Below the pieces are notes generated by a model, which saw nothing but the letters and a program-made list of their open reading frames with translations, did no database searches and had not been told where the DNA came from. From Mariniphaga sediminis (GTDB lineage: Bacteria; Bacteroidota; Bacteroidia; Bacteroidales; Prolixibacteraceae): DNA of 64,000 bases. The position numbers were made by a program, and so were the translations under genes. Below are positions 10,823 through 60,962 of the stretch, piece by piece; position 1 is the stretch's first letter; every line of letters begins with the position of its first letter. The stretch lies in assembly GCF_003573545.1 (NCBI RefSeq), contig NZ_QWET01000001.1:248001-312000 (forward strand), in the 5' to 3' direction.

Positions 10823-10851
10823 ACAGGAGGGTGCCGCAAACACCCTCCTGT
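10823..10851 (-). promoter_or_regulatory. Conserved hairpin between fecR and susC (locus 1)
   Basis: An 11-bp perfect stem (ACAGGAGGGTG, loop of 7, CACCCTCCTGT) lies immediately after the fecR stop and 57 nt before the susC ATG. Read in the gene sense the loop is TTTGCGG. No T-run follows on the transcribed side, so it is not a standard terminator. The second sigma/FecR/SusC locus at 60934-60962 has an equivalent hairpin with changed but still paired stem bases, which suggests a conserved RNA element tuning susC expression. Confidence 0.7.
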
Positions 10852-10853
10852 TT

Positions 10854-11915
10854 TCAGTTAAAGGCTTTAAGCCTTTTTTGGTCTAATTTAACTAAGACTA
10901 TTCGTTTTTGGTATATATTATCATCGCCTGTAGCGCGGGGTAAAATTTTATAGGTATAGGGAGTGGTGAGGGCCATAAATTTTAGTACTTCCTCCAGGGG
11001 TTCATCAATAAAGGTGGCATGAAACGAATGCTCCAGCAGCTCTTCATCTTCTATTCTTATCTCTGCATTGTACCACCTGCCCAAACGTTCGGCTACCTGC
11101 TGCATATTCTCATTCCGGAAAATTAGTTTTCCTTCAATCCAGCCAATGTACTGGGATGCTTCAACACGGGTCGTTTTATAGATTCTTTTTTCGGTATCCA
11201 ATACCAGTTTTTGATTCGGCTGAAGTATGTCGAGTTTTGCTCCGTTTTTTGTGGCAATTTCTACTTTCCCGTTGTTAAGAATAACTTCCTCGTTTTTATC
11301 ATCCTCATAAGCAATAACATTGAATTGAGTGCCCAGGACTTTTACATTTAAATGGGAAGTATGCACCACAAATGGATTTGATGGGTCATGTGTAACGTCA
11401 AAATAGGCCTCCCCGGAAACCGTTACGTTACGTTCTCCCGAAAAACGAACCGGGTATTTCAGTGTGGAGCCACTGTTCAGAAATCCGGTGGTCCCGTCGG
11501 GAAGCTGAAACCTTGTACGTACTCCTAGTGGACACTGAATCTCGGCATAAGCCGTGTTTTCAACAATGGGTTTCGGCGGGCTTTCTTTCCCGGATTGAAA
11601 ATAAAAAACGGCCAAAAAAGAGAGCAGCAGCGGGATAATAAGTATGGCCGCCACTCTTTGGAAAACTGTAAGGAAGCTAATCCTGTGTGAAGTGCCTTTT
11701 TCAAGACTTATTTTATGATGAATTTTGTCCAATAGGTGTTCCACTGTTTCCGGAGGCATTTCTTCCCTGGAGAAATCATTCCAGTGGCTCTCTACGTATT
11801 GTTTCAGTTTTGACCTTGTCTCCAGGTCGCTGAAAACAGATTTTATATTCAGGTAATCTTTGCGGGAGTAAGTTCCTTTGAAAAAGCGGTCTACTATTTT
11901 CGGATCAAAATCCAT
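10854..11915 (-). CDS. FecR family anti-sigma factor (DUF4974 C-terminus)
   Basis: A 353-residue single-pass inner-membrane regulator. A cytoplasmic N-terminal helical region (1-80) should bind the ECF sigma factor. A transmembrane helix spans about 86-106. The periplasmic FecR domain follows (about 118-230; RFQLPDGTTGFLNSGSTLKYP and GEAYFDVTHD are family blocks), and the C-terminal DUF4974 module (about 260-340; GKLIFRNENMQQVAERLGRWY) should contact the STN domain of SusC. It lies between the sigma gene and susC on the same strand. The ligand-loaded receptor would release the sigma factor through this protein, by analogy with the FecA-FecR-FecI system. Confidence 0.93.
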   Translation of the reverse strand: MDFDPKIVDRFFKGTYSRKDYLNIKSVFSDLETRSKLKQYVESHWNDFSREEMPPETVEHLLDKIHHKISLEKGTSHRISFLTVFQRVAAILIIPLLLSFLAVFYFQSGKESPPKPIVENTAYAEIQCPLGVRTRFQLPDGTTGFLNSGSTLKYPVRFSGERNVTVSGEAYFDVTHDPSNPFVVHTSHLNVKVLGTQFNVIAYEDDKNEEVILNNGKVEIATKNGAKLDILQPNQKLVLDTEKRIYKTTRVEASQYIGWIEGKLIFRNENMQQVAERLGRWYNAEIRIEDEELLEHSFHATFIDEPLEEVLKFMALTTPYTYKILPRATGDDNIYQKRIVLVKLDQKRLKAFN

Positions 11916-11967
11916 CTATCACGTTTTATTGACTTTCATTTTTATATAAATATATAGGGACGGAAAT

Positions 11968-11983
11968 GAAAAATCCCCCAGTA
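11968..11983 (-). promoter_or_regulatory. Candidate fecR promoter element shared by both FecR loci
   Basis: In the gene sense this reads TACTGGGGGATTTTTC and ends 52 nt before the fecR ATG, followed by an AT-rich tract (CCTATATATTTATATAA). The other sigma-fecR gap has TACTGGGGATTTTTCC at 59765-59780, also followed by a TATAA-containing tract. A block kept in two otherwise unlike spacers suggests an ECF-sigma-recognised promoter or a leader element. The function is inferred only. Confidence 0.5.
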
Positions 11984-12258
11984 AAAAATGAAAAAAAATA
12001 TTATTATTAATGAATGATCTCATGTTGAGGTTTTTACGAGATTCGTTTTTTCAGTCATAGTACAGGAGAAAAATCGTATTTCATTTAAAAATCTTTGAAA
12101 TTTCAAGTGACCCATCCATGCCTTAACTTTTATATTGGATGGATTAACGGAAGATTTTTGGAAATACCGGTTCATCCTGTTTAACTTTCAAAATGATTTC
12201 CCTTCCTATCTTTCTAATATATATCAAAACCACACTAATGTCATGTCAACTTCAAAAT

Positions 12259-12333
12259 GTCATTTCGACCCCCAGGGAGAAATCTGTTGGAGTATTGAGA
12301 TTTCTCATCTTCGTGCCTCAGATTCGAAATGAC
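12259..12333. repeat. REP/MITE-like nested inverted repeat
   Basis: The outer arms GTCATTTCGA (12259-12268) and TCGAAATGAC (12324-12333) are perfect, and the inner arms GAGAAATCT (12277-12285) and AGATTTCTC (12298-12306) are also perfect. This arrangement resembles small intergenic palindromic repeats common in Bacteroidota genomes (recalled pattern, not checked). No second copy was seen in the window. It lies between the sigma gene and fecR. Confidence 0.7.
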
Positions 12334-12380
12334 TGCACGAGACAATTTATGTTTGATATGACACTCAAAAATATTTCAAA

Positions 12381-12968
12381 TCAAGGTTTTACAAAAAGGG
12401 CAAAAAACAGCATGGCCGAAATGTTGTCCTCTCCCAATTTTTTCCGGATAGTTTTTAACGCTTCAGTAAGGTGGTTTTCAACTGTTTTGGGGGCTATTCC
12501 CAGTTGTTCTGCAATTTCCTTTACCGGAATATCTTCTTTCCGGCGTTTAATAAGGATTTCTTTCTGACGTGAGGGGAGTTGTTCAATGAGCTGATCTACC
12601 TTTTCAAGCAGAAGTTGATAATTCAGCCTGTCTTCATTTCCGGAGGTGAATTGTATGGATTCTTCTATCAGCTGATCTTTATATACCTGTTGCCGGGACG
12701 CACGTTCGAAATACTCCAGGATAAAATGCCAGGCAATTTTAAACAGGTAAGCTTTGAACGACAGCTCCGGTTTTATGCTTTTCCGGTTTCGCCAAATACG
12801 AAGAAAAACTTCCTGGACAACCTCTTCTGCATCTTCTTTGGACTTCAGATACCCGTAAGTAAAATGGTAAATGCGGATCCCATATTGGGAGAACAGCTCA
12901 TCAAAAGCTTTGGCATCTCCTTTTTTTAAGGCTTTTAGCAGTAATATTTCATTCTCTCCAGGGTTCAA
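12381..12968 (-). CDS. ECF RNA polymerase sigma-70 factor (SusC/FecR-linked)
   Basis: A 195-residue group 4 sigma factor with region 2 (about 22-90, DELFSQYGIRIYHFTYGYLKSKEDAEEVVQ) and region 4 (about 120-178, with the HTH VKEIAEQLGIAPKTVENHL). It should recruit RNA polymerase to the downstream fecR/susCD cluster when released by FecR. The reading frame can only start at TTG (12968), because an in-frame TGA directly precedes it and there is no early ATG or GTG. The C-terminus is a short hydrophobic tail (AMLFFALFVKP), a feature shared by the other three ECF factors in this window. Confidence 0.93.
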   Translation of the reverse strand: MNPGENEILLLKALKKGDAKAFDELFSQYGIRIYHFTYGYLKSKEDAEEVVQEVFLRIWRNRKSIKPELSFKAYLFKIAWHFILEYFERASRQQVYKDQLIEESIQFTSGNEDRLNYQLLLEKVDQLIEQLPSRQKEILIKRRKEDIPVKEIAEQLGIAPKTVENHLTEALKTIRKKLGEDNISAMLFFALFVKP

Positions 12969-13124
12969 TCAGCTTACAATTAGTTTATATGTCAACCAGC
13001 CAAAGGTAGAATTTTTATTATTTCCTTTCAAAGAAATATTTTTTATTCCTTCCTCCCTTTTCGTTTCCAGTTTTAAAAATTTAAATCGGGGGCTCTTTTC
13101 TGTCTTTTTACCCGGAGGGTTTGA

Positions 13125-13209
13125 ATGCTTATAGACAATAGAGCAGTGTAATACGGTTCGACTCCGGCCGGAGTCGGATTTCAGCACCCGGTAACGTTTC
13201 TATAAGCAT
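13125..13209. repeat. 85-bp concentric inverted repeat with GC-rich core palindrome
   Basis: The outer arms ATGCTTATAGA (13125-13135) and TCTATAAGCAT (13199-13209) pair perfectly. At the same centre lies the perfect 18-bp palindrome CGACTCCGGCCGGAGTCG (13159-13176). The intervening halves pair poorly. It sits upstream of the sigma gene and downstream of galU, with no T-run typical of a terminator. It could be a regulator-binding site, a small mobile palindromic element or a transcript-end structure. Confidence 0.65.
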
Positions 13210-13267
13210 GTGATGCTGTTGGCATCTGGGATTTGGAGATTTAGCCGTATTGTAATCCCTCAGTTTT

Positions 13268-14137
13268 TCAGAGTTCTTTTGCAAACTCCTTTAGCCACTT
13301 TCTTAGCGGAACGGCAATCTCTTCGTGTTTCAAACCATAAATGACATTGGTTTTTAAAAAATCGAGTTTATTGCCAATATCGTAACGTGTACCTTTGAAT
13401 TGCAGGCCGTACATGGCATATTTTTTCACCATATCGCGCATGGCATCAGTCAGTTGAATTTCATTGTTTTTGCCCGGTTGGGTTTTGTCGAGGTAATTAA
13501 AAATCTCGGGTGTAAAAATATATCGGCTGGCAATGGCCAGGTTCGACGGCGCCTCTTCCGGTGCCGGTTTTTCAATAAAATCTTCCGCAATCAGCACATT
13601 CTTTTCCAGCTTTTTCCCTTTAATCACACCGTAGCGGTGCACATTATCCATGGGTACTTCTTCCAGTGCCACAACCGAACTTTTGTACCGTTCATACACA
13701 TCAATAAGCTGTTTGGTGATGGGATCTCCTTTCCCGCTGATGAGTGTATCGCCCAATAATACGGCAAACGGCTCGTTACCGACATGATCCCGGGCATAAC
13801 GGATGGCATCTCCCAATCCGTTCATCTCCTTTTGCCACACAAAGTGAATGTTGGCCAGGTTCGATATTTTTTTGATCTGTTCCAGTAAATCAAACTGTTT
13901 TTTCTTCACCAGTGACTCTTCCAGTTGCGGACTCCGGTCAAAATGCTCCTCAATGGCCCGTTTCCCTTTCCCGATAATCATCAGGATGTCAGTAATGCCA
14001 CTTGCCACAGCTTCTTCTACCACATACTGAATGACAGGCGTGTCCACAATAGGGATCATCTCTTTGGGCTGTGATTTGGTGATGGGTAAAAATCGGGTTC
14101 CCCAACCGGCGGCGGGGATGACAGCTTTTTTTATCAT
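13268..14137 (-). CDS. galU: UTP--glucose-1-phosphate uridylyltransferase
   Basis: A 289-residue nucleotidyltransferase making UDP-glucose from UTP and glucose-1-phosphate in the cytoplasm. The signature loop AAGWGTRFLP is at residues 9-18, followed by the KEMIPIVDTPVIQYVVEEA block, the GLGDAIRYAR substrate loop, LLGDTLISG and the FIEKP motif, all typical of bacterial GalU. Length matches the family. It is the last gene of a three-gene minus-strand operon, 7 bp after a glucuronokinase-like GHMP kinase gene. This raises the possibility that it, or another pyrophosphorylase, activates the sugar-1-phosphate made by that kinase, but GalU proper prefers glucose-1-phosphate. Confidence 0.95.
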   Translation of the reverse strand: MIKKAVIPAAGWGTRFLPITKSQPKEMIPIVDTPVIQYVVEEAVASGITDILMIIGKGKRAIEEHFDRSPQLEESLVKKKQFDLLEQIKKISNLANIHFVWQKEMNGLGDAIRYARDHVGNEPFAVLLGDTLISGKGDPITKQLIDVYERYKSSVVALEEVPMDNVHRYGVIKGKKLEKNVLIAEDFIEKPAPEEAPSNLAIASRYIFTPEIFNYLDKTQPGKNNEIQLTDAMRDMVKKYAMYGLQFKGTRYDIGNKLDFLKTNVIYGLKHEEIAVPLRKWLKEFAKEL

Positions 14138-14144
14138 TTTGAAA

Positions 14145-15143
14145 TCAGTTTACTATGTTGGGTTTTATTACGTCAATATTTTTTTTAGCCAGCGCTTTTA
14201 TCAACTTCTGATACATTTCTTCGTTTTCGTATGTGCCAATAATAGCGCCTCCTGAACCGGTAAACTTGGCAGATGCACCCACTGAGCGGGCTGCTTCCAC
14301 CATCTCAATGTTCCCTGGGGTAATGGCAATTAGGTTGCGTCGCAGATCGAAATTAGCGTTTATCAGTTCGTGCATGGTTTTGTAGTCGTGCGATTTCAGC
14401 GCTTCCCTGAAATCTTCTGTGTAACCAGCCCATGTTTTCATTGCTTCAAGAACTTTTTCTTCTCCAATGTTGAAACGTGCCCGCAGGTTATTGTGTAACA
14501 CTTCGGTCCCTTCCGAAAGGTTTTTGCGAAAGGCGATATACATATTGGGAAACAAAGAGGCATCCAGCACTTCATAATTTCCGAAGCCCTGTTTTTCCAT
14601 TGTTTTTTTGTTGAAGTCCATGTAAACCGGTTCGCTATATGCTTGTGCCACTCTGTCCTGCAGCCCGGCTGCAATACCGAGTTCTTTATCTTCCACGCTC
14701 AGTACCAGGTTGGCTAAAATGGGTTTGGGAATGGCCACGCCGTAGAATGAAATCAATGCTTTCATGCAGGCGGTGATAATGGCACTGCTTCCTGCCAATC
14801 CCAGGCGCAGAGGGATATTCGAATCATATCGAATGGTGAAATTTCGATTGTCGAGTTGGATGTTGCATTCCCGGCAGTAGTCATAGAACACCTTGATGGT
14901 GGCCTTTAAAAGCCGGATGCCTCCGTAGTAGCCTGAAAGATTTACGTTTTCAACCAACTCCCTGATACTGTGAAAACGGGTATTATCAAGCCTCTGTGGT
15001 TGAATGTCAAGTTCCGGTGTTTGGTACAATTGCACTTTCGCCTGAAAGTTGGAGAAAAGAAAAGCAATTGTTTTCCCAAAATAACCATCCGACGGGTTCC
15101 CGATAACCGCTGCCCGGGGGTAACTAAACGTTTCAATTATCAT
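14145..15143 (-). CDS. GHMP kinase, glucuronokinase-like
   Basis: A 332-residue GHMP-family sugar kinase. The N-terminal block AAVIGNPSDGYFGKTI (11-26) resembles the opening of plant glucuronokinase, which phosphorylates glucuronic acid at C1. The ATP-binding motif is GLAGSSAI (115-122) and the C-terminal glycine-rich motif is AKFTGSGGAIIG. A product of glucuronate-1-phosphate is inferred from recalled family similarity. Mevalonate-kinase-type annotation is less likely given the NPSDG block. It is flanked by an acyl-activating enzyme gene (18 bp upstream) and galU (7 bp downstream) on the same strand, forming an operon. Substrate assays are lacking, so the specific function is tentative while the family call is secure. 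Confidence 0.82.
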   Translation of the reverse strand: MIIETFSYPRAAVIGNPSDGYFGKTIAFLFSNFQAKVQLYQTPELDIQPQRLDNTRFHSIRELVENVNLSGYYGGIRLLKATIKVFYDYCRECNIQLDNRNFTIRYDSNIPLRLGLAGSSAIITACMKALISFYGVAIPKPILANLVLSVEDKELGIAAGLQDRVAQAYSEPVYMDFNKKTMEKQGFGNYEVLDASLFPNMYIAFRKNLSEGTEVLHNNLRARFNIGEEKVLEAMKTWAGYTEDFREALKSHDYKTMHELINANFDLRRNLIAITPGNIEMVEAARSVGASAKFTGSGGAIIGTYENEEMYQKLIKALAKKNIDVIKPNIVN

Positions 15144-15161
15144 AATCCGGGGTCTCTTTTT

Positions 15162-17066
15162 TTATGTGTTCCATTTTTTTATGGCTTCCAGGTTCATTTC
15201 ATTTTCAATGTTCCGTGCCTGCGGCAAATATAAAAACTCAAGTTCCTTACTGAAGTATTCGCAAATTTTGCCACGCACTGTTTTCATGGTCGTATTTATT
15301 AACCCGTTTTCCTGGTTAAATGTTTCAGGCAGCACCACAAAAGTTGCCGGTAACCAGCGTTCCGGAAACATTTCCCCGTACTCCCCGCCTTTTTTGTAGG
15401 CATTTATTTCTGCATTCAGAATCTGCACTGATTCCCTGTTCCCTTCCTCGCTGCCGGGCTCAATACCTCGTTTCTTCAATTCCAGGTTGATGGCACTGAT
15501 GTCGGGTACAATCATAGCCGAAGTAAAAGGGCTTTGGTTATTGTACAGCATCATTTGCTGAATGTAGGGAGACTGTTCCACAATGGCCTCTTCAATTCCT
15601 TCCGGGCTGTATTTTTCGCCGTCATTTCCAATCAACAGGCTTTTAAACCGGCCCAGCACATAAAGGAAGCCGTCTTTATCCATGTACCCCATGTCGCCGG
15701 TGTGCAGCCAGTTGTTTTTAATGGTTTCGGCAGTGGCTGCCGGATTGTTCCAGTATCCCAGCATCACATTGTCGCCTTTGACTACAATTTCACCTTTTTG
15801 CCCCTGGGGCAGTTCGTTGCCGTCTTCATCCAGAATTTTTAGATCAAGGTGTTTTACGAGGCGGCCTGAAGAACCAAACTTGATGGCGTGCAGGGCATTG
15901 GAGGAGATAACCGGCGAGGCTTCGGTAAGCCCGTACCCCTGGCAAACGGGGATGCCAATGGTGTAGAAGAAGCGTTGTAATTCCGTGTCGAGCAATGCAC
16001 CGCCTCCGATAAAGAACTGTAGCTTCCCACCAAATCCTTCCCGTATTTTTTGGAAAAGGATTTTATCAAATACCCACAACAATGGCTTCAGGATAAACTT
16101 CCAGCCTTTGCCTTTGTTGTAGCCCACGCCGTTGTATGTATAACCCACCTTCAAGGCAAACTGAAAAACTTTAAAGAGAGTTTCCCCCTTTTTCCGGATT
16201 TGACCTTCAATATTTTGTCTGAATTTTTTGGAAAACGCCGGAACACTCATTAACAGGGTAGGCTGAATTTCTTTAATATTCTGAGGTATATTTTTTAGCG
16301 TTTCAAGCGGTGTTTTTCCCACTTCCACCGAAGCAATGCTGGCCCCTTTATACATAAATGCATAGAGGCAGCAGGTGTGGGCAAAGGCGTGGTCCCAGGG
16401 AAGGATAGCCAGTGTTCTCCAATCGGAATGGAGCTCCATGAGCGTGTTCGATTGTACCACGTTGGCGGCGTAATTCAGGTGCGATAGCATGATCCCTTTA
16501 GGATCGGCTGTGGTCCCTGATGTGTAACTGATATTGGCCAGGTCGTTGGGTTTTATATTTTTCCAGGTGGCCTCCAACTCTATTTCATGTGTTTTCAGGT
16601 ATTCTTCCCCTTGTTTTATTAATTCCCGGTAATCGACATCGTTTTTGCCTGGATTTTCTTTCCCGTCAAGATAGATCACTTTTTCGAGGTCAGGCAGATT
16701 GTCGCGGATGGCTTCCACCTTGGCGGCATGCGCCCCGGAAACAAAAATAAATTTACTTCCACTGTGTTTTAACCTGAACGTCAATTCACTTTCGTGTAAC
16801 CGGATGGAAAGAGGAACATTCACACCGCCTGCGTAAAGCATTCCCAGTTCGCTGATGATCCAATCGTTTCGGCCATCGGATATCAGCCCTGAGCGGTCTC
16901 CCTTTTTCATGCCAATAGAAACCAGCCCGGCTGTGAGGTTCAGCACCTGGGCCCTTGTTTCCTGGTAAGAGGTACCTTGGAATTTACCGTCTTTTTTTTC
17001 CCAAAGATAAATATTGTCAGGGTAGTTAGCGACTGCTGTTTCAAAAAGTTCGATTATCGTTTTCAT
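15162..17066 (-). CDS. AMP-forming long-chain acyl-CoA ligase-like protein
   Basis: A 634-residue member of the ANL adenylate-forming family, closest in layout to FadD15-type long-chain fatty acid-CoA ligases. Visible motifs are the P-loop YTSGTTADPKGIMLSH, the A5 motif GYGLTEASPVISSN, and the A7/A8 region TGDMGYMDKDGFLYVLGRFKSLL. The frame extends 13 codons upstream to 17105, but the residues there are unlike the family, so ATG 17066 (MKTIIELFETAVANYPDN) is chosen. It would activate a fatty acid with ATP at the membrane for beta-oxidation or lipid synthesis. It begins an operon with the GHMP kinase and galU. The functional link to sugar nucleotides is unclear. Confidence 0.92.
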   Translation of the reverse strand: MKTIIELFETAVANYPDNIYLWEKKDGKFQGTSYQETRAQVLNLTAGLVSIGMKKGDRSGLISDGRNDWIISELGMLYAGGVNVPLSIRLHESELTFRLKHSGSKFIFVSGAHAAKVEAIRDNLPDLEKVIYLDGKENPGKNDVDYRELIKQGEEYLKTHEIELEATWKNIKPNDLANISYTSGTTADPKGIMLSHLNYAANVVQSNTLMELHSDWRTLAILPWDHAFAHTCCLYAFMYKGASIASVEVGKTPLETLKNIPQNIKEIQPTLLMSVPAFSKKFRQNIEGQIRKKGETLFKVFQFALKVGYTYNGVGYNKGKGWKFILKPLLWVFDKILFQKIREGFGGKLQFFIGGGALLDTELQRFFYTIGIPVCQGYGLTEASPVISSNALHAIKFGSSGRLVKHLDLKILDEDGNELPQGQKGEIVVKGDNVMLGYWNNPAATAETIKNNWLHTGDMGYMDKDGFLYVLGRFKSLLIGNDGEKYSPEGIEEAIVEQSPYIQQMMLYNNQSPFTSAMIVPDISAINLELKKRGIEPGSEEGNRESVQILNAEINAYKKGGEYGEMFPERWLPATFVVLPETFNQENGLINTTMKTVRGKICEYFSKELEFLYLPQARNIENEMNLEAIKKWNT

Positions 17067-17573
17067 TCTCAAACGGGTTGAATTTTTTTCGTTTTTGATT
17101 CCCAAAAGTAAAAAAAAAAGGCAATAAACTGCTTCGGAGGTGAATACCGGGTTTAACCGGAAAAATGGTGGGTGTTGTACGACGGAACTTTAGCCCGGTG
17201 AAAAAAGGGACAAATGATTCTGGTACCACTCGTGACACCACACAGAAGTTGAACTGTTTAATCTGTGCTCCTTCATGGTATCAAACATTTGTCGTTAAAT
17301 TTTTCCCTTCAGCTACTGAAAAACAGACACTGTCTTCCAGAGCGAAAGTTCAAAAGAGATAAAGCAAGGATTGAACGCGGGAATAATTTTGCGTTTTTAC
17401 CCCGCATTGTTTTCCCCGGGCTTCACGCGGAGCTATTTTTATTTATGTCCTTTGGACATTTCTTTATCCCGAAAGGGATTAAACGATAATAGCCACGGGG
17501 TTTTCCCGCGGTAATGAAGTGGATACGAGAAGAACCCCGAAGAGGGTTCAACCCTTGCATTAGTTATCCGTTT
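17067..17573. other. 507-bp gene-free gap holding a multi-palindrome repeat
   Basis: This gap separates the acyl-ligase operon from galM. The half next to galM (about 17370-17560) is a chain of short GC-rich palindromes, listed separately. The half next to the ligase start is ordinary sequence and presumably holds the operon promoter, though no strong -33/-7 pair was identified. Short open frames here follow the repeat and are not credible genes. Confidence 0.6.
17370..17560. repeat. Multi-palindrome intergenic repeat element
   Basis: This stretch is a chain of small hairpins: GTCCtttGGAC, TCCCgaaaGGGA, a CCACGGG/CCCGCGG pair with one mismatch, and GAACCC/GGGTTC. The arrangement resembles a widespread Bacteroidota intergenic repeat often mis-annotated as a short protein (recalled, not searched). 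No second copy was found in the window. Position between two transcription units is typical for such elements. Confidence 0.65.
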
Positions 17574-18623: not shown

Positions 18624-18715
18624 GCTTATTTTTATGTTCTGGTATCCTGGCTCAGGCCAGAGTTAAACCTGATACTTTATTCTTATTTGCAAAAATGCAT
18701 ATTTTGATTCAGCAA

Positions 18716-18735
18716 ACTGGTAGGTACTGGTAGTG
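18716..18735. promoter_or_regulatory. Candidate GntR operator, copy 1 (galM/gntR divergent region)
   Basis: The sequence ACTGGTAGGTACTGGTAGTG matches, at 18 of 20 positions, the reverse complement of 19871-19890 in front of galK. It contains a tandem ACTGGTAG. The location about 90 bp upstream of galM and 50 bp upstream of gntR fits a shared regulatory site for the GntR protein encoded next to it. Binding is inferred. Confidence 0.7.
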
Positions 18736-18768
18736 TTGTAGAACATGTTTCGTTTATGTGGTTTCTGC

Positions 18769-18776: not shown

Positions 18777-18785
18777 CCCGAACCA

Positions 18786-52477: not shown

Positions 52478-52502
52478 CGGATTATTAAACAAGCGAAGCA
52501 GA

Positions 52503-54893
52503 ATGGCATTTAAACCCAAGAGGACTGGAAAAGCGAAACAGAAGACAAAAAATCCACGCAAACCTTTTTTTCGGAATGAGAAATTCAGGTTTATCCTGGG
52601 TATATTTGTTTTGTTGGTTTCGGCCTATTTGCTTATTGCTTTTATCTCTTTTCTGTTTTATGGTGCGGCGGATCAAAGCCGGCTCGATTTACCCTGGAAA
52701 GATTTGGTGTTAAACTCAGACGTTAAGGTGGAAAACAAAGCAGGAAAAACCGGCGCATACCTTTCGGAGATGATTATAAACCAGGGGTTTGGTTTGGCTT
52801 CGTTTGTGTTTATTTTTTTATTTGCTGTGACAGGATTTAAAATATTGGGACACAATCTGGTAAAATACAGGCGTGCCCTTATTTTTAACCTGGTACTTAT
52901 TCTTTGGATTTCGGTTACACTGGGATTTTTTTTCCAAAAAACAAGCGCAACATCTTTTATTTATCCCGGAGGGCATTACGGAATGGTGTTAAGTAACTGG
53001 TTTAGCTCACTTGTAGGTAAAACAGGGCTGGTTTTTTTACTGCTCATTTCAATACTGGCCATTCTTGTTATTCGGTTTGAAAAAGTGTATGAGTTCCTGA
53101 AAGGATTATTCCGAAGAAAGCCCAGGAAAAAAGCAGAGCAGGAATCTTTGGTGGTAAATGAAGAGGAAGAAGAAATAGAAAATGAAACGGTAGCAGAGGA
53201 TACATTTTCTAAAGTGATAGACGACGATGTGGTGAAGGCCGTTTTTGAACCAGATTTGGAAGAAGAACCAGTAGAAGTGAAAATACCTGAAAAGGAAGAA
53301 GATAGTGAAACGGATGAATTGGAGTTGACCGTTCAGGAAAAGAAAGAGGAGGAAGAGATAGACAAAGAGCATTCAGGGGAAGAAATGGAAGATTATGATC
53401 CAACCCTGGAACTTTCGGGTTTTAAGTTTCCCACGCTCGAACTGCTGGAAGACCACAGTTATGGAAATGCCGAGGTAAGTAATGAAGAGTTGATTGCCAA
53501 TAAAAACAGGATTGTGGAAACCCTGCGGCACTATAAAATTGAGATTACCAAAATCAGGGCAACCATTGGGCCTACTATCACTCTTTATGAAATTGTGCCG
53601 GCGCCGGGAATCCGGATTGCCAAGATTAAAAACCTGGAAGACGATATTGCCTTAAGTCTGGCGGCACTCGGCATTCGTATTATTGCTCCTATTCCCGGGC
53701 GCGGAACCATTGGTATTGAGGTTCCCAACCAGAACCCGGAAACAGTTTCCATGCGTTCTATTTTGAGTTCGCGTAAGTTCCAGGAAAGTACTGCCGACCT
53801 TCCGGTGGCGCTGGGAAAAACCATTTCGAATGAAACCTTTATGTTCGATCTGGTCAAAATGCCGCATATTTTGGTGGCAGGAGCTACCGGGCAGGGGAAA
53901 TCGGTGGGAATCAATGTGATTATTAGTTCGCTGCTTTACAAAAAACATCCATCGCAACTTAAGTTCGTTTTTGTCGATCCCAAAAAGGTGGAATTAAATC
54001 TTTATTCGGTTCTGGAAAAGCATTACCTGGCGAAACTCCCCAACGAGGAAGAACCGGTTATTACCGATATTCAGAAAGTAAAATACACGCTCAATTCCAT
54101 CAATGTGGAAATGGACCAGCGTTATGATTTGCTGAAGAAGGCGCACGCCCGGAATATAAAAGAGTATAATAAAAAGTTTATCAGCCGCAGGCTGAACCCT
54201 GAAAAGGGACATCGTTTTCTGCCGTATATTGTGGTGGTGATTGATGAATTTGCCGATTTGATAATGACTGCCGGTAAAGAAATTGAACTGCCTATTGCGC
54301 GTATCGCCCAGCTGGCCAGGGCAGTGGGTATTCACATGATTATTGCCACCCAGCGTCCTTCTACCAATATTATTACGGGGGTTATCAAGGCCAACTTCCC
54401 GGCACGTATTGCATTCAAAGTAGCCTCGATGATAGACTCACGCACCATTCTTGATACTCCCGGCGCTAACCAGCTTATCGGAAAAGGGGACATGCTCATT
54501 GCATCGGGTAGTAGTATGACACGGGTTCAATGTGCATTTATTGATACGCCTGAAGTGGAAAAGATTTGTTCTTTTATTTCGGAACAGAGGGGATTCCCCA
54601 GCGCCTTTTTACTTCCGGAATACGAGGATGGAGAAGATGCCGGGCCTGGCGAGGTAGACCTCAACAACCGCGATGAACTGTTTGAGGATGCCGCGCGGAT
54701 TGTCGTGTTAAATCAAATGGGCTCCACTTCCATGATTCAGCGTAAATTTTCTATTGGCTACAACCGGGCCGGTCGTATTATGGACCAACTGGAAGCTGCC
54801 GGAGTGGTGGGACCCAGTGAAGGAAGTAAGGCCAGGCAGGTGCTTATGCAGGATGAGTACACTTTGGAACAATTGTTGAATAGTTTTAACTAA
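52503..54893 (+). CDS. ftsK: DNA translocase FtsK
   Basis: A 796-residue septal DNA pump. Four membrane helices occupy about 28-192, an acidic Glu-rich linker about 205-300, the motor about 320-720 with Walker A GATGQGKS (460-467) and Walker B VVVIDEFADL, and the gamma winged-helix domain about 730-796 (MIQRKFSIGYNRAGRIMDQL) that reads KOPS-like sites. It moves chromosome ends during division and activates Xer recombination at dif. It is followed 9 bp later by lolA in the same direction, a pairing common in this phylum. XerD is encoded about 1.2 kb further on. Confidence 0.97.
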   Translation: MAFKPKRTGKAKQKTKNPRKPFFRNEKFRFILGIFVLLVSAYLLIAFISFLFYGAADQSRLDLPWKDLVLNSDVKVENKAGKTGAYLSEMIINQGFGLASFVFIFLFAVTGFKILGHNLVKYRRALIFNLVLILWISVTLGFFFQKTSATSFIYPGGHYGMVLSNWFSSLVGKTGLVFLLLISILAILVIRFEKVYEFLKGLFRRKPRKKAEQESLVVNEEEEEIENETVAEDTFSKVIDDDVVKAVFEPDLEEEPVEVKIPEKEEDSETDELELTVQEKKEEEEIDKEHSGEEMEDYDPTLELSGFKFPTLELLEDHSYGNAEVSNEELIANKNRIVETLRHYKIEITKIRATIGPTITLYEIVPAPGIRIAKIKNLEDDIALSLAALGIRIIAPIPGRGTIGIEVPNQNPETVSMRSILSSRKFQESTADLPVALGKTISNETFMFDLVKMPHILVAGATGQGKSVGINVIISSLLYKKHPSQLKFVFVDPKKVELNLYSVLEKHYLAKLPNEEEPVITDIQKVKYTLNSINVEMDQRYDLLKKAHARNIKEYNKKFISRRLNPEKGHRFLPYIVVVIDEFADLIMTAGKEIELPIARIAQLARAVGIHMIIATQRPSTNIITGVIKANFPARIAFKVASMIDSRTILDTPGANQLIGKGDMLIASGSSMTRVQCAFIDTPEVEKICSFISEQRGFPSAFLLPEYEDGEDAGPGEVDLNNRDELFEDAARIVVLNQMGSTSMIQRKFSIGYNRAGRIMDQLEAAGVVGPSEGSKARQVLMQDEYTLEQLLNSFN

Positions 54894-54902
54894 AATTTTA
54901 AA

Positions 54903-55553
54903 ATGAAGAGTATTTTTCTATTGGGTTTGTTGCTGGCTTCCGTTTTTTTTGCAATCGCTCAACAAGATCCAAAGGCCAAACAGATTTTGGATGAAATGAG
55001 CGAAAAAACACGTTCGTATGAGTCCATTGCCGCTGATTTTGTTTTTTCTTTGGAAAATAAGGAAATGGATATCAGTGAAAAAAATGAAGGTTCTATCAAA
55101 CTGAAAGATCAAAAATATGTTGTTGATCTTCCTGCTCTTGGAGTGAAAGTTTTTTCTGACGGGGAAACGTTATGGAATTACATGAAAGACGGAAACCAGG
55201 TAACCATTTCAAATATAGAGGACGGAGGGAATGAATTAATGGACCCTTCATCGATTTTTACCATTTATGAAAAAGGTTTCCAGTCAAAATTCATGGGAGA
55301 AAAAGTTTCGGGGAATAGTACTGCGTACCAAATCGAACTTTATCCTGATTCCGGAGAGTACGATGTAAGTAAAATCCTGCTTTCCATTGGGAAGTCGGAT
55401 AAAATGATAAAATCGGCTTTACTGTATGGCACCGATGGGAATGTGTATGGTATTATAGTAAAAAAGATGGATACCGATACCAACCTTCCCGATTCCTTTT
55501 TTGTGTTTAATACAAATGATTATGGTGATTTGGAGGTAATCGATTTCAGGTAG
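54903..55553 (+). CDS. lolA: LolA-like periplasmic lipoprotein carrier protein
   Basis: A 216-residue periplasmic protein. Signal peptide about 1-19. The mature chain has the unclosed barrel pattern of LolA (SIAADFVFSLENKEMD, GSIKLKDQKYVVDLP, LWNYMKDGNQVTIS) and ends with a FVFNTNDYGDLEVIDFR strand. It ferries lipoproteins to the outer membrane, such as SusD-type proteins. It lies directly after ftsK, and its end overlaps the convergent aroQ gene by 8 bp. Confidence 0.9.
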   Translation: MKSIFLLGLLLASVFFAIAQQDPKAKQILDEMSEKTRSYESIAADFVFSLENKEMDISEKNEGSIKLKDQKYVVDLPALGVKVFSDGETLWNYMKDGNQVTISNIEDGGNELMDPSSIFTIYEKGFQSKFMGEKVSGNSTAYQIELYPDSGEYDVSKILLSIGKSDKMIKSALLYGTDGNVYGIIVKKMDTDTNLPDSFFVFNTNDYGDLEVIDFR

Positions 55554-55965
55554 AAGCGAAGCTAAACACGGCCAGCTTGTAGGAATCGAGCCCGAAACCC
55601 ATAATGCAGCCCTTGCATACCGGCCCTATAATAGACTTATGCCTGAAATCTTCGCGGGTCAGTGTATTTGAAATGTGTACCTCCACAACAGGGATGGTTA
55701 TGCCTGCAATGGCATCGCGAATGGCTACTGAGGTATGTGTGTAGGCTCCGGCATTTATGATAATACCATCGGCCGAAAAACCATGCTCATGAAGCTTGTC
55801 AACCAATTCCCCCTCCACATTCGACTGAAAGTAGCTAAATTTGATTTCAGTGAAGGCCGCACTCAGCTTTTCAAAATAGTCTTCAAAGCGTTCTGCACCA
55901 TAGATGTTTTGTTCCCTTTTTCCCAGCAGATTTAAGTTCGGCCCGTTGATGATCACTAAATTCAT
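55546..55965 (-). CDS. aroQ: Type II 3-dehydroquinate dehydratase
   Basis: A 139-residue dodecameric enzyme of the shikimate pathway converting 3-dehydroquinate to 3-dehydroshikimate. The opening NGPNLNLLGKREQNIYG (7-23) contains the catalytic Tyr22, NAGAYTHTSVAIRDA the substrate loop and VEVHISN the His97. Length is normal. It is divergent from xerD and overlaps lolA at the 3' end. Confidence 0.96.
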   Translation of the reverse strand: MNLVIINGPNLNLLGKREQNIYGAERFEDYFEKLSAAFTEIKFSYFQSNVEGELVDKLHEHGFSADGIIINAGAYTHTSVAIRDAIAGITIPVVEVHISNTLTREDFRHKSIIGPVCKGCIMGFGLDSYKLAVFSFAST

Positions 55966-56105
55966 TATATTGCAATTTTAATTATTTTTATAGTAACTTT
56001 ATCGTCGTCGAAACGTAGTAAATATCATAATTATTTGGTATAATCTCAAGGAATAGTGTTACAAATATTTAAATCATTTGATTTAATAATTAAAATGGAA
56101 GAGTT

Positions 56106-57005
56106 ATGAAATGGGAGGAAAGCAAAAAAGGATATGAAAATTACCTGAAATTGGAAAAGTCGCTATCGCAAAATTCCATAGCAGCGTATATTAATGACAT
56201 TAACAAATTGATTGAATTTCTGGGTAAAAATGTAAAGAAAACAAGCCCGGATAAAGTCAAACTACAGCACCTTAAAAAATTTGTGGAATGGTTGAACGAA
56301 CGGGGGGTTAGTCCACGTACACAAGCGCGGACCATTTCCGGGATTAAATCATTTTATAAATACCTTTTGATTGAAGGGAAAATTACAAGTGATCCGACTG
56401 CCTTGCTTGAGTCACCTAAAATTGGCAGGAAGCTTCCGGATATTTTGACGATGGAGGAAATTGACGAACTGATTGATGCCATCGATCTGGAAAAGGCGGA
56501 AGGACAACGTAACAAGGCTATGTTGGAAACGCTTTACAGTTGTGGCCTCCGGGTTTCGGAGCTGGTAAGTTTGAAGATTACAAACCTGTTTTTCGATCAG
56601 GGTTTTGTAAAAATTGAAGGGAAGGCAGACAAAGAACGTCTCGTTCCTGTAAGCAGCCGGGCGGTGAAAGAAATTCAAAAGTATATGGATGGTTACCGTA
56701 AAAACCTCAAGATTCAAAAAGAAAGTGAAAATATTCTTTTCCTGAACAGGAGGGGGAAGAAACTGAGCCGGGTAATGGTATTTACCATTATTAAGAATCT
56801 GGCAGATAAGATTCAGCTGAACAAGAAGATCAGTCCGCATACTTTCAGGCATTCGTTCGCTACCCATTTAATAAATGGTGGCGCCGATTTGAGAGCGGTT
56901 CAGGAAATGTTGGGACACGAATCAATTTTAACCACCGAGATTTATACCCACCTGGATCGGGATTACCTGAAGAATACCATTCACCAATATCATCCAAGGT
57001 CTTAG
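56106..57005 (+). CDS. xerD: Tyrosine recombinase XerD
   Basis: A 299-residue tyrosine recombinase that resolves chromosome dimers at dif. The N-terminal SAM-like DNA-binding domain covers about 1-95 and the catalytic domain the rest, with Arg149 (CGLRVSELV), Lys173, His245 and Arg248 ([16 protein letters not shown]), His271 ([14 protein letters not shown]) and nucleophile Tyr280. It lies downstream of ftsK, its activator, and a clear terminator follows it. No sign of an integron or phage integrase context. Confidence 0.95.
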
Positions 57006-57027
57006 TTTATCATAATTATAATTTATG

Positions 57028-57054
57028 GGGCTGTTAAATAAACAGCCCTTTTTT
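57028..57054 (+). terminator. Rho-independent terminator after xerD
   Basis: GGGCTGTT and AACAGCCC form an 8-bp perfect stem with a 5-nt loop, followed by a run of six T. It is 23 bp past the xerD stop. Confidence 0.9.
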
Positions 57055-57155
57055 GTCTGTTTTTACCTGTTCTCGAAATTGTTAAGATAACGTTTAATCA
57101 GCCCCTAAAACCCTTCAAATAACCAGTGTGCTCGCCTTCAAGCGGAAAAATATTC

Positions 57156-57163
57156 TATTTTTG
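57156..57163 (+). promoter_or_regulatory. -7 box upstream of pckA
   Basis: TATTTTTG fits TAnnTTTG and lies 54 nt before the ATG. The -33 region is a poor match (CTCG at a 21-bp spacing). Confidence 0.45.
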
Positions 57164-57217
57164 TCCTATCGACTAGCAAATAAGAATCAGTATTATAAAG
57201 TTAATTATTAGGTAGTT

Positions 57218-58825
57218 ATGGAAAATTTAGATTTAGTGAAGTACGGAATTAAAGACGTACAGGAAGTTGTGCACAATCCCTCTTACGATCAGCTTTACGA
57301 GGAAGAATTGCGAACCGATTTGGAAGGTTATGAAAAGGGGCAATTAACTGAACTCGGAGCTGTCAACGTGATGACCGGCGTATTTACCGGACGCTCCCCC
57401 AAAGACAAATTTATCGTTGAAGACGATATAACCAGGGACACCATCTGGTGGACAACCCCCGAATCACCCAACGACAATAAGCCCGTATCTGCTGAGGCTT
57501 GGAATGAGTTGAAAGAGATTACGGTTAAACAGCTTTCAGGAAAACGTTTGTTTGTAGTGGACACCTTTTGTGGTGCAAATCCCGACTCAAGGCTGAAAGT
57601 CCGCTTTATTATGGAAGTGGCATGGCAGGCTCATTTCGTAAAAAATATGTTCATCCGTCCAACCGAGGAAGAACTTAAAAATTACGGAGAACCTGATTTT
57701 GTGTCTTTGAATGCATCAAAAACTACCAACCCGAATTGGAAAGAACATGGCCTGAATTCAGAAGTTTATACCGTATTCAACCTGACTGAAAAGATGCATG
57801 TTGTAGGTGGTTCATGGTATGGCGGCGAAATGAAAAAAGGAATGTTCGCGATGATGAACTACTACCTTCCTCTCAGGGGCATGGCATCGATGCACTGCTC
57901 TGCCAACGTTGGAGAGAAAGGCGATGTAGCTATTTTCTTTGGACTTTCCGGTACCGGAAAAACAACACTTTCCACAGACCCAAAACGTAAATTGATTGGC
58001 GACGACGAACACGGTTGGGATGATGACGGCGTATTCAACTTTGAAGGGGGATGTTATGCAAAAACCATTAACCTCGATGCTGAAGCTGAACCGGATATTT
58101 ACAACGCCATTAAGAAGGATGCCCTGCTTGAAAACGTGACTGTTGACGCGAATGGCAAAATTGATTTCTGCGATAAATCGGTTACTGAAAATACACGTGT
58201 TTCATACCCGATTTACCATATCGATAATATTGTAAAACCAGTATCGAAAGCAGGACATGCCAACAAGGTAATTTTCCTTACTGCAGATGCATTTGGTGTA
58301 ATGCCTCCCGTGTCGAAACTGACTCCGGAGCAAACCAAGTACCATTTCCTTTCAGGTTTTACTGCAAAACTGGCCGGAACCGAGCGTGGTATTACCAGCC
58401 CGCAACCTACTTTCTCCGCTTGTTTTGGAGCTGCTTTCCTTTCACTCCATCCAACAAAATACGGTGAAGAGTTAGTGAAAAAAATGGAAGAACATGGCGC
58501 TGAGGCATATTTGGTGAACACTGGCTGGAATGGCACCGGTAAACGTATTTCTATTAAAGATACCCGTGCTATTATCGATGCTATCCTTGATGGATCCATC
58601 GAAAGTGCTGAAACCAAAAATATACCGGTTTTCAACCTTGAGGTTCCTACTTCATTGCCGAATGTGGACTCAGGAATTCTTGATCCACGTGATACTTACA
58701 GCGATCAGAACGAGTGGCAGGAAAAGGCGAATGATTTGGCCAGCCGCTTTATCAAGAACTTCGTAAAATACACAGATAACGAAGAGGGTAAAGCATTGGT
58801 TGCTGCCGGTCCGCAACTGGGATAA
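57218..58825 (+). CDS. pckA: Phosphoenolpyruvate carboxykinase (ATP)
   Basis: A 535-residue enzyme converting oxaloacetate and ATP to PEP and carbon dioxide; in many Bacteroidota it runs in reverse to fix carbon dioxide during fermentation. The P-loop [11 protein letters not shown] (from about residue 242), the metal and OAA sites GDDEHGWDD and [10 protein letters not shown] and the [12 protein letters not shown] opening are typical of the ATP type. Length is normal. A strong terminator follows. Confidence 0.97.
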
Positions 58826-58846
58826 AAGATTATCCGCTACAATAGA

Positions 58847-58884
58847 AAAAGGGGTTATCAATTTCAATTTTGATAACCCCTTTT
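58847..58884 (+). terminator. Rho-independent terminator after pckA
   Basis: A 15-bp perfect stem AAAAGGGGTTATCAA / TTGATAACCCCTTTT with an 8-nt loop lies 21 bp past the pckA stop. Flanking A and T tracts support termination. Confidence 0.92.
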
Positions 58885-59018
58885 CGCTTATCTGACTTAA
58901 CAACTTATCCTTTGTTTAACTGAACCAGCCCTCTTTCAAAATAAAAAAATAGAAATAGTCTTTTCTCCGGATGTGTTAATTTTTCCTTTCTTTGTGAAAG
59001 GAAGATAAAGCTAATCCT

Positions 59019-59612
59019 TTGTTTCAAAAAAAAATAAATACTGAAACTGCCTTGCTGAAAGGACTGAAGAATGGCGATCACGCATGTTTTCGTCAATTGT
59101 TTAATCGGTACAGTAAATCTTTGTATCGTTTTTCCTACAGTTACCTGAAGTTAAATGAAACTGCTGAGGATGTCGTTCAGGAGGTTTTTATAAAAATTTG
59201 GAAAAGAAGGAAAGATATTGATACGGAAAAATCTTTTCAATCCTATTTATTCACCATTGCACTCAATGTGGTGAGGAAACACTTTAATAAGCTGGCAGAG
59301 TCCAATCAGCTAAAACACGATATTCTGGTATCTTTTTCTGATAACCCGAAAAAACTGGACGAACAGGAAGATTATGAAAACCTGGTGCTCAAACTGGAAT
59401 CCCTGATCGAACAAATGCCTGAAAGACGACGGGCCATTTTCAGAGCAAAAAAAATAGAGGGAAAGTCGCAGAAAGAGATTGCCGAAGAATTTAATATTAC
59501 TACCAAAACTGTGGAATACCATATTTCCGAAGCCATGCGATCCCTTAAAAAAGAGTTTGAAAAGTTACGATCAAAGGGACTGGTTTTTTTCTATTTGTTT
59601 TTGAGAGGATAA
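59019..59612 (+). CDS. ECF RNA polymerase sigma-70 factor (SusC/FecR-linked, locus 2)
   Basis: A 197-residue group 4 sigma factor with region 2 (about 20-90; FRQLFNRYSKSLYRFSYSYL and AEDVVQEVFIKIW) and region 4 (about 125-180; HTH QKEIAEEFNITTKTVEYHI). The only possible start in the open frame is TTG 59019, since no ATG or GTG occurs between it and an in-frame TGA at 58995. The C-terminus GLVFFYLFLRG is hydrophobic. FecR and SusC genes follow on the same strand, so it forms a second surface-signalling unit like the one at the left of the window. Confidence 0.93.
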   Translation: MFQKKINTETALLKGLKNGDHACFRQLFNRYSKSLYRFSYSYLKLNETAEDVVQEVFIKIWKRRKDIDTEKSFQSYLFTIALNVVRKHFNKLAESNQLKHDILVSFSDNPKKLDEQEDYENLVLKLESLIEQMPERRRAIFRAKKIEGKSQKEIAEEFNITTKTVEYHISEAMRSLKKEFEKLRSKGLVFFYLFLRG

Positions 59613-59764
59613 AAACTGTCTTTTCTGTTGTGCCGCGTTTCAAGATAATGAGACTTTCCCGGTATTACGGTGGTTTTGGGATGATCATGCAGGCGATTTA
59701 ATCCCTCCTTTTTATCGGGGTAATTTGTAGCTATTTAGATAGAGTCTAAAAAAAACATTATTTG

Positions 59765-59780
59765 TACTGGGGATTTTTCC
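59765..59780 (+). promoter_or_regulatory. Candidate fecR promoter element (locus 2)
   Basis: TACTGGGGATTTTTCC lies 113 nt before the fecR ATG and is followed by GATCAGGGATATAA. The same block stands before fecR of locus 1 (11968-11983, minus strand) with one extra G. Possible ECF-dependent promoter. Confidence 0.5.
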
Positions 59781-59848
59781 GGATCAGGGATATAACCATT
59801 GAAAAGGACAGAAGAATTTGTTTTTTTTAATTAGTTAGTTTAGTTAGA

Positions 59849-59883
59849 AAAAGAAGGAGGTATTGCATTGCACTCCTTCTTTT
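59849..59883 (+). promoter_or_regulatory. 11-bp hairpin in front of fecR (locus 2)
   Basis: AAAAGAAGGAG and CTCCTTCTTTT pair perfectly around a 13-nt loop, ending 10 nt before the fecR ATG. It would cover the ribosome-binding region or act as an attenuator. No equivalent was found in locus 1. Confidence 0.55.
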
Positions 59884-59893
59884 AAAAAGGAAA

Positions 59894-60925
59894 ATGAAGA
59901 AAGTAGTAACATATAGAACCCTTGAAAATTTTTCCAAAGGGAAATATTCCTGGAACGATTACCTGCAAGTTCGGGACTGGTTTAGCAATATCCACGATTT
60001 TAAAGAGGTTAAAACTTTTTTGTATGAGCAGTGGAAGGGATTGAATAAAAAGGGTATTCCGGATGATAATTCCTTAAAGCATATTTATGAGCAGATTGAA
60101 TACCACATTTTGCTCGAAGAAAGGCAAGAATTGAAAAGGAAAGGCTTGTGGAGTTTTTATCGTCAGGCTGCAGCCATTCTTCTTATTCCGGTTTTGGCCT
60201 TTTCCCTGTGGCATTTCCTGATGAATAAACAAGCAGGTAATATGAATCTGGCCTGGGTAGAAATTAATTCCCCGCCAGGAGCCCGCACTCAGTTTTTATT
60301 GCCCGATGGTTCAAGCGGTTGGCTCAACAGTGGCTCTACCTTAAAATACAATCCGGTTTTTTCAAACAAACGGGAGGTTGAATTGTCGGGTGAGGCCTAC
60401 TTTGAAGTGATTCCTGACAATTCGGTTTTTACGGTAAATGCTGCCGATCTCAATGTGCGTGTATTGGGTACAAAGTTTAATGTGTCGGCCTATCCCGATG
60501 ATGATTTTACCGAAGTGGTTTTGGCGTCGGGAAAGGTTGCCGTGGAGGGTGAAGATAAGTTTTTCGAAAAGATTTTGTTGCCGAACGAAAAACTGACTTT
60601 TTTGCCGGGTGAGAATAAATATACTGTAAAGCAGGTTGATACAAACTCCTATGTTGCCTGGAAAGATGGCTTTTTACTCCTCGATAACGAGCCACTTGAA
60701 GAGGCAATTAACCGGATCGAGCGGTGGTACAATGTGGTGATTGAGGTGGAAGACGAGACGTTGAAAAGGTACCGGTTTAAGGCCACTTTTCAGGATGAAC
60801 CGCTTGAGGAAGTGTTAAAGTTGCTGGCGGTTTCAACTCCCATGGAATATACATTTGAAAAAAGAGTGGTGGATGACAAAAATTTTTATCAGAAGAAAAA
60901 AGTGACAATAAAACTAAAACAATAA
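59894..60925 (+). CDS. FecR family anti-sigma factor (locus 2)
   Basis: A 343-residue membrane regulator like the one of locus 1. The cytoplasmic part is about 1-88, the transmembrane helix 91-110, the periplasmic FecR domain about 120-230 (RTQFLLPDGSSGWLNSGSTL and GEAYFEVIPDNSVF) and the DUF4974 end about 255-330 (GFLLLDNEPLEEAINRIERWY). It should hold the sigma factor encoded upstream until the SusC receptor encoded downstream signals that ligand is bound. It ends 8 nt before a conserved hairpin. Confidence 0.93.
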   Translation: MKKVVTYRTLENFSKGKYSWNDYLQVRDWFSNIHDFKEVKTFLYEQWKGLNKKGIPDDNSLKHIYEQIEYHILLEERQELKRKGLWSFYRQAAAILLIPVLAFSLWHFLMNKQAGNMNLAWVEINSPPGARTQFLLPDGSSGWLNSGSTLKYNPVFSNKREVELSGEAYFEVIPDNSVFTVNAADLNVRVLGTKFNVSAYPDDDFTEVVLASGKVAVEGEDKFFEKILLPNEKLTFLPGENKYTVKQVDTNSYVAWKDGFLLLDNEPLEEAINRIERWYNVVIEVEDETLKRYRFKATFQDEPLEEVLKLLAVSTPMEYTFEKRVVDDKNFYQKKKVTIKLKQ

Positions 60926-60933
60926 AATGCAAA

Positions 60934-60962
60934 GCAGGAAAGTGGTGCGAACACTTTCCTGC
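60934..60962 (+). promoter_or_regulatory. Conserved hairpin between fecR and susC (locus 2)
   Basis: An 11-bp perfect stem GCAGGAAAGTG / CACTTTCCTGC encloses the loop GTGCGAA, 8 nt after the fecR stop and 56 nt before the susC ATG. Compared with locus 1, two G-C pairs are replaced by A-T pairs while CAGGA..GTG, TGCG in the loop and CAC..TCCTG are kept. Confidence 0.7.

Follow-up and report, generated by a model that had tools for sequence, protein, structure and literature searches.

Introduction

The closest described counterparts of the element studied here are small RNAs of gut Bacteroides. According to the portions available of the reports cited in this paper, the DonS family consists of antisense RNAs of 78-128 nt that repress susC homologs, and ten DonS-like RNAs, five of them detected by northern blot, are known in Bacteroides thetaiotaomicron (PMC7366714). 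In the same species, 32 antisense RNAs are associated with polysaccharide utilisation loci (PULs), with both correlation and anticorrelation with susC (PMC10994844). The mechanism of DonS is called unknown (PMC11697453). At B. thetaiotaomicron PUL24, 5'RACE in an anti-sigma mutant located a 5' end 291 nt ahead of susC, within the anti-sigma gene (PMC11501099). Here we examine a 64,000-nucleotide stretch of the Mariniphaga sediminis genome (contig NZ_QWET01000001.1, positions 248,001 to 312,000; hereafter the window), which holds two loci encoding an extracytoplasmic function (ECF) sigma factor, the anti-sigma protein FecR and a SusC-type receptor, each with a hairpin in the gap between fecR and susC. 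These hairpins are real and conserved, and are best read on the strand opposite susC, where each is probably the intrinsic terminator of a short, DonS-type cis-antisense RNA facing susC.

Results

Two hairpins and the predicted units around them

Both window hairpins have a perfect 11-bp stem and a 7-nt loop. Hairpin 1 (10823-10851, minus) reads ACAGGAGGGTG TTTGCGG CACCCTCCTGT and hairpin 2 (60934-60962, plus) reads GCAGGAAAGTG GTGCGAA CACTTTCCTGC. They follow the fecR stop codon by 2 and 8 nt and end 57 and 56 nt before the susC ATG, respectively. A check of the sequence agreed with a preliminary description of this DNA on these positions, stems, loops and distances, and on its remark that neither hairpin is followed by a T-run on the susC strand. 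Its report that stem pairs change in step between the two hairpins was also correct, although the number of such pairs is three rather than two: two G-C/A-T differences and the outermost pair, A-T/G-C. Five perfect stems of at least 9 bp with loops of 3-10 nt occur in the 64 kb, both hairpins among them, and the folds of the two fecR-susC gaps stand at z -3.63 and -3.56 against shuffled sequences. No Rfam family was matched in the window.

An intrinsic-terminator scan gave a call for each hairpin, in both cases only on the strand opposite susC. On the antisense strand a GC-rich stem is followed by a U-tract at both window loci, an arrangement that holds to a moderate degree over the genome's locus set. 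With the RNA start set by the position of a promoter-like box at the susC start codon, the predicted units at the two loci run in reverse between the susC ATG and the fecR stop, that is, opposite the susC 5' region:

10823..10851, plus strand: terminator hairpin of predicted antisense RNA 1; perfect stem, intrinsic-terminator call, tail TTTCAGTTAA
10851..10858, plus strand: U-tract of RNA 1, TTTTCAGT; a moderate, imperfect U run, read from the sequence
10765..10772, plus strand: predicted antisense -7 box TACTTTTG, fitting the TAnnTTTG consensus (PMC7366714); overlaps the susC start codon
10777..10858, plus strand: predicted antisense RNA 1, 82 nt, two stem-loops; start set by box position
10854..11915, minus strand: fecR, anti-sigma gene with FecR and FecR_C domains (Pfam)
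7403..10765, minus strand: susC-type TonB-dependent receptor with STN domain (Pfam)
12381..12968, minus strand: ECF-type sigma factor (Pfam)
60934..60962, minus strand: terminator hairpin of predicted antisense RNA 2; perfect stem, intrinsic-terminator call, tail TTTGCATTTT
60926..60933, minus strand: U-tract of RNA 2, TTTGCATT; moderate, read from the sequence, immediately beyond the opposite-strand fecR stop codon
61012..61019, minus strand: predicted antisense -7 box TAAATTTA, final base A not G, read from the sequence; overlaps the susC start codon
60926..61007, minus strand: predicted antisense RNA 2, 82 nt, two stem-loops; start set by box position
59894..60925, plus strand: fecR, anti-sigma gene with FecR and FecR_C domains (Pfam)
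61019..64000, plus strand: susC-type receptor, continuing past the window end; open frame from the ATG at 61019, TIGR04056 match G000:C1:309445-312543
59019..59612, plus strand: ECF-type sigma factor (Pfam)

At locus 1 the first T of the U-tract is also the last base of the stem, and the tract overlaps the fecR stop codon on the opposite strand. The fold of predicted RNA 1 reaches -27.9 kcal/mol (z -5.89) and that of RNA 2 -27.1 kcal/mol (z -4.83), with 0/200 shuffles as good in either case.

Hairpins in the fecR-susC gaps of the whole genome

A profile search returned 72 FecR matches in the M. sediminis genome. One (C9:21704-21973), lying inside a 1114-aa frame, was left out of the analysis and the other 71 were taken in. 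Three loci with gaps of 6-27 nt and without a hairpin were set aside: L026, whose next gene fails to match a susC N-terminal model; L007, with a weak match (E 1.6e-8); and L065, where a susC-like gene lies 6 nt after fecR. The genes following the remaining 68 fecR genes all match this model at E below 1e-10, the model itself having been built from 25 of these 68 loci. The 68 gaps amount to 65 distinct loci. Three pairs of gaps on contigs C4 and C12 (L013/L014, L034/L035 and L052/L053) are identical and lie at a nearly constant offset of 9795-9983 bases, which suggests an assembly duplication, with contig C4 repeating part of C12.

Every one of the 65 distinct gaps holds a hairpin at or below -6 kcal/mol. 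Compared with shuffled sequences, the best hairpin reached p at most 0.05 in 60 of the 68 gaps (median z -3.76) and failed to do so in 8. An alignment of 42 of the 68 hairpins, hand-picked and with loops of 5-7 nt, contains two-sided changes at 11 of 11 stem pairs; 87.1% of its cells are compatible with pairing against 61.7% after shuffling, and its covariation score is 0.643 against 0.205. Picking by hand according to fold favours pairing, so the pairing and covariation figures are upper bounds. Given hairpins in 65 of 65 gaps, strengths beyond shuffles in 60 of 68, and covarying pairs, the fecR-susC hairpins are not a product of chance. The conserved, covarying hairpin that the preliminary description had put forward from two loci is thus borne out, with a shared stem and covariation among gaps of this genome, and it recurs in other genomes. 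The loops are asymmetric, usually C...AA in the susC direction. An anticodon-like reading of them was dropped, many loops being of 6 nt.

A covariance model built from the 42 hairpins proved specific but weak, recovering 27 of the 68 gaps at E below 1. Its scan of the 5.83-Mb genome, in which 150 of 779 candidates were scored, gave 28 distinct sites at E below 1, all of them upstream of susC. Of these, 27 lie in fecR-susC gaps and are mostly the training sequences themselves, and one, L144, is new. A further four sites reach E values of 2.9-6.1; three of them lie outside the fecR-susC gaps and the fourth inside one. Among 20 chosen loci compared with Rfam there were four matches (E 0.11-0.93), every one under the gathering score.

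A promoter-like box on the susC start codon

The context of the susC start codon is strongly conserved, with Y at -7, AAA at -6 to -4 and T at -1. The corresponding pattern, YAAANNTATG, is found at the susC start of 64 of the 65 distinct fecR-susC loci and at none of the control open reading frame (ORF) starts, whether frames of at least 150 codons (0/226) or at least 300 codons (0/124) are taken; these controls were defined mechanically and are not all real genes. The reverse complement of the pattern is TAnnTTTR, and TAnnTTTG is the -7 promoter consensus of sigma-ABfr (PMC7366714). A search of -60..+60 around the susC start for the strict form, TAnnTTTG, gave 48 of 65 loci with a match on the antisense strand and none with one on the sense strand. 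As a sequence feature, a promoter of its own, such as a DonS-type RNA should have, is accordingly present in the form of the -7 box at 64 of 65 loci. The fifth base past the box is preferentially G (35/65 loci), a plausible candidate for the start of the antisense RNA.

An ECF promoter inside the gap was also considered and rejected: no shared motif was seen there, and sense-strand TAnnTTTG occurs in only 2 of 65 gaps. The susC start motif AANNCAAANNTATGAAAAA has two further matches outside the fecR list, at G000:C11:32262 and C24:16870. At the SusC N-termini (window positions 61019-61080 and 10700-10765, and other fecR-linked genes) the hydrophobic signal stretch comes only after about 20 residues (MKK...KLLRIMKLT); these include a second in-frame ATG, and annotated susC starts may therefore differ.

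U-tracts and lengths of the predicted RNAs

Across the 65 distinct loci, at least five U in the eight bases after the hairpin are found at 44 on the antisense strand and at 6 on the sense strand, where the mean is 2.1 T of 8; a run of at least four U follows the hairpin at 48 and 7 loci, respectively. The antisense rule is satisfied at 42% of random places upstream of the hairpin and the sense rule at 15% of random places downstream. Antisense U-tracts (68%) are therefore in moderate excess over chance, whereas sense U-tracts (9%) show no excess and fall below it. The start-codon box is the stronger sign of an antisense unit, and is independent of the U-tracts.

Measured from the assumed start to the U-tract, the predicted RNAs have a median length of 78 nt over the 65 loci (range 46-114, 10-90% interval 61-99), with both window RNAs at 82 nt. 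At least two stem-loops are predicted in 63 of 65, as counted from the folds themselves.

susC genes without an upstream fecR

Among the 56 of 132 candidates scored in a TIGR04056 search for susC genes, 11 without an upstream FecR match were taken for comparison. The box is present in two of them, L140 and L144, and both carry hairpins (-14 and -16.1 kcal/mol) that lie 67 and 59 nt ahead of the ATG and have an antisense U-tract; at L144, U-rich sequence flanks the hairpin on both sides. Of the nine without the box, only L145 satisfies the hairpin rule, its hairpin being weaker and placed 27 nt ahead of the ATG, and eight do not. L144 (G000:C1:495500-498500) is a second susC near another susC locus, and the 569-codon gene that precedes it is not fecR; judged by eye, it is probably susD. 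Because hairpin and box occur together at susC genes that lack fecR, L144 among them, the element tends to go with the susC start rather than with the fecR end.

Distribution in other lineages

Other genomes were scored with rules derived on the M. sediminis genome; the next gene was not always checked as susC, and gaps under 60 nt were counted and left unscored. The counts omit L081 and L098, and L082, L089 and L095 are unplaced, their flanks ending at contig ends. Genomes of the same family, among them Prolixibacteraceae bacterium UBA12447, gave 47 loci whose gaps reach 60 nt or more, of which 37 have the box, 36 an antisense U-tract hairpin (sense, 3) and 30 both; two genomes in the set, G002 and G283, give identical matches. 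In Bacteroides oleiciplenus the box is found at 6 of 10 loci and the U-tract hairpin at 7 of 10, with both at 5, and in Lunatibacter the figures are 8 of 11, 5 of 11 and 5. Gaps without a hairpin also occur in other genomes (for example L102, L118, L130 and L265). The full signature is thus strong in the Prolixibacteraceae and present in Bacteroides and Lunatibacter, and is uncertain further away.

A covariance-model scan of 149 genomes under strict filters found matches in nine, M. sediminis included. Nine hits were checked: L214, L216 and L223 lie upstream of a susC-like frame, and L211, L212, L213, L215, L219 and L222 apparently do not. With six of nine hits apparently misplaced, the covariance model is a poor marker far from the Mariniphaga family.

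A candidate start-stop mini-ORF on the sense strand

A second short motif, GCCTATG or a one-base variant of it (in one case with ATT for ATG), is present at 34 distinct loci, at the end of fecR or in the interval between fecR and the hairpin. In the frame of its ATG a stop follows after a median of 2 codons (at most 6), against 11 and 12.5 codons in the other two frames. At 40 GCCTATG loci from other genomes the corresponding medians are 3 against 14 and 15.5 codons, and 33 of the 40 close within 6 codons in the ATG frame against 11 and 10 in the others. Of the 10 places in the genome where the pattern TGCCTATGNNNTAA matches, 9 belong to these fecR ends or gaps; the reversed pattern matches 3 times. 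On the simplest reading, GCCTATG would mark a sense-strand mini-ORF just beyond the predicted antisense terminator. We rejected the motif as a promoter -10 element, since the ATG frame closes far sooner than the other two.

The mini-ORF precedes the hairpin by about 15-60 nt in the sense direction at L019, L040 and L064 of M. sediminis, among other gaps of that genome, at L244, L261 and L264 of B. oleiciplenus, and at L250 and L272 of Lunatibacter. It is absent from both window loci, where the hairpin follows fecR directly.

Discussion

Directly seen at these loci are a hairpin, its covariation, a box on the susC start codon and a moderate excess of antisense U-tracts. From these we infer a transcript, its start, its termination and its repressive effect. 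Short antisense RNAs seem to be encoded at nearly every fecR-susC locus of one genome. Two aspects deserve emphasis: the coverage of nearly all such loci in that genome, and the overlap of a promoter box with the bases of the susC start codon.

We propose that a housekeeping (sigma-ABfr) promoter, whose -7 box is the complement of the susC start context, would fire backwards out of susC. The resulting RNA would begin about 12 nt upstream of the susC ATG, end about 80 nt further on beside the fecR stop, and form a stem-loop at its 5' end and the terminator hairpin at its 3' end. It would be fully complementary to about 80 nt of the susC leader, stopping short of the start codon by about 12 nt. 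As long as the ECF sigma factor is held by FecR, housekeeping polymerase would make the antisense RNA, which could pair with leaky or leftover susC leader beside the start codon and lead to a block of translation or to decay; polymerase occupying the start codon could be a further obstacle to sense transcription. Upon release of the sigma factor, strong sense transcription would override the antisense RNA. If a 5' end like that of PUL24 is general, the ECF-driven susC message would carry the whole gap as its leader.

Several observations weigh against this proposal. The gaps are 44% A, and this richness explains much of the contrast between antisense and sense U-tracts; our confidence in an antisense terminator was lowered on the strength of this base-composition control. 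Fewer than five U in eight bases are found at 21 of 65 loci, and the U-tracts of both window loci are imperfect. Taken whole, the terminator scan gave no clear excess over shuffles (25 against 18.8, standard deviation 5.2; 12 against 12.5, standard deviation 3.6), and it was this near-equality that led us to assess U-tracts over the whole locus set. The loop and closing pairs (RTG...CAY) are kept more than a plain terminator requires. No enrichment of a -33 TTTG was found at the 65 loci, and the -33 motif was likewise not found in Flavobacterium johnsoniae, according to the part of the report available (PMC7366714). The box of window locus 2 has A as its last base, and its RNA is predicted to start with C. 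Some half of the predicted RNAs fall short of the published minimum of 78 nt. In more distant groups, box, U-tract hairpin and both occur at 3/10, 3/10 and 1 loci in Chitinophaga, 3/11, 4/11 and 0 in group f2, 3/6, 4/6 and 1 in group f3, and 7/8, 2/8 and 2 in group f5. Over 105 loci outside M. sediminis, box and hairpin are weakly coupled (both 44, box only 23, hairpin only 17, neither 21; p 0.04).

The alternative that survives best is that the hairpin works in the sense 5' leader of susC, where it would stabilise or process the message, insulate the ribosome site or bind a protein. A sense leader element, attenuator or processing site was the reading we first favoured, and it was demoted once the terminator scan called the window hairpins on the antisense strand only. 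The susC message of an ECF locus may start inside the 3' end of fecR, as the PUL24 5' end 291 nt upstream of susC does within its anti-sigma gene (PMC11501099), which would place the hairpin in the leader; the conserved loop and closing pairs, and the sense mini-ORF just upstream of the hairpin in many loci, are in keeping with this. Nevertheless, the promoter box that accompanies the hairpin and the U-tract excess both lie on the other strand, and apart from the mini-ORF we found no sense-strand signal tied to the hairpin. We judge the leader reading unlikely as the main explanation, having given it more weight after A-rich gaps were seen to account for much of the U contrast, although the hairpin may have a second role there. 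The preliminary description's suggestion that the hairpin stabilises, processes or attenuates the susC message consequently finds no support, with the opposite-strand box at 64/65 loci against 0/226 control starts and U-tracts at 44/65 antisense against 6/65 sense.

A sense-strand terminator or attenuator cutting read-through from the sigma factor and fecR genes into susC would make sense of near-perfect stems placed between regulator and receptor genes, but we regard it as very improbable: at least five T of eight follow the hairpin at 6 of 65 loci, under the 15% expected by chance, the mean is 2.1 T of 8, and neither window hairpin was called on that strand. Slimmer still are the chances that the inverted repeat is a dispersed repeat or the DNA operator of a dimeric regulator: despite palindromic arms and many copies per genome, the stems differ between loci in a compensated way, the loop lacks symmetry (usually C...AA towards susC), and all 28 distinct model sites at E below 1, most of them training sequences, lie upstream of susC.

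The cis-antisense terminator remains our preferred reading, and it can be extended, tentatively and with doubt prevailing, into a wider one. An antisense off-switch might be built into every ECF-sigma/FecR/SusC module of Bacteroidota, with a housekeeping promoter that has bases in common with the susC start codon, so that sigma-ABfr and the ECF sigma factor would compete over one start; the start-stop mini-ORF of the sense leader, found from Bacteroidales to Lunatibacter, might then belong to the switch as its second, so far undescribed component, bringing a terminating ribosome next to the antisense 3' end.

If the signature holds, susC-facing antisense RNAs could be predicted from DNA alone, by a start-codon box and a hairpin, and would be a standard part of the ECF/FecR/SusC module genome-wide and also in other orders, turning a few gut Bacteroides examples into a general wiring rule. 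The signature also names the bases to alter for separating antisense from sense function.

No description of the fecR-susC hairpin was found in the literature searched, in the portions of it that were available. The candidate structured RNA HMP2_1032 resembles it in being palindromic, from Bacteroidetes and near TonB, but is 106 bp long and lies near the periplasmic protein TonB (PMC8040213), a comparison made by description only. FopS and GibS of B. thetaiotaomicron, which act with RbpB, offer another parallel, in that FopS pairs with the susC translation start region; FopS differs in belonging to a trans-acting paralogous family encoded elsewhere (9 intergenic, 4 antisense and 1 3'UTR-derived; PMC11697453), and neither RNA is a cis-antisense unit with its promoter on the susC start codon. 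The DonS-type RNAs (among them DonS of B. fragilis and BTnc009, -055, -077, -123 and -249 of B. thetaiotaomicron) come closest, being PUL-linked and antisense to the susC 5' region, with lengths of 78-128 nt against the median of 78 nt predicted here (PMC7366714, PMC10994844). The units described here, whose candidate -7 box lies inside the susC start context as it may also do in published DonS RNAs, differ in being predicted from sequence, with the box at 64 and the U-tract hairpin at 44 of 65 loci of one genome.

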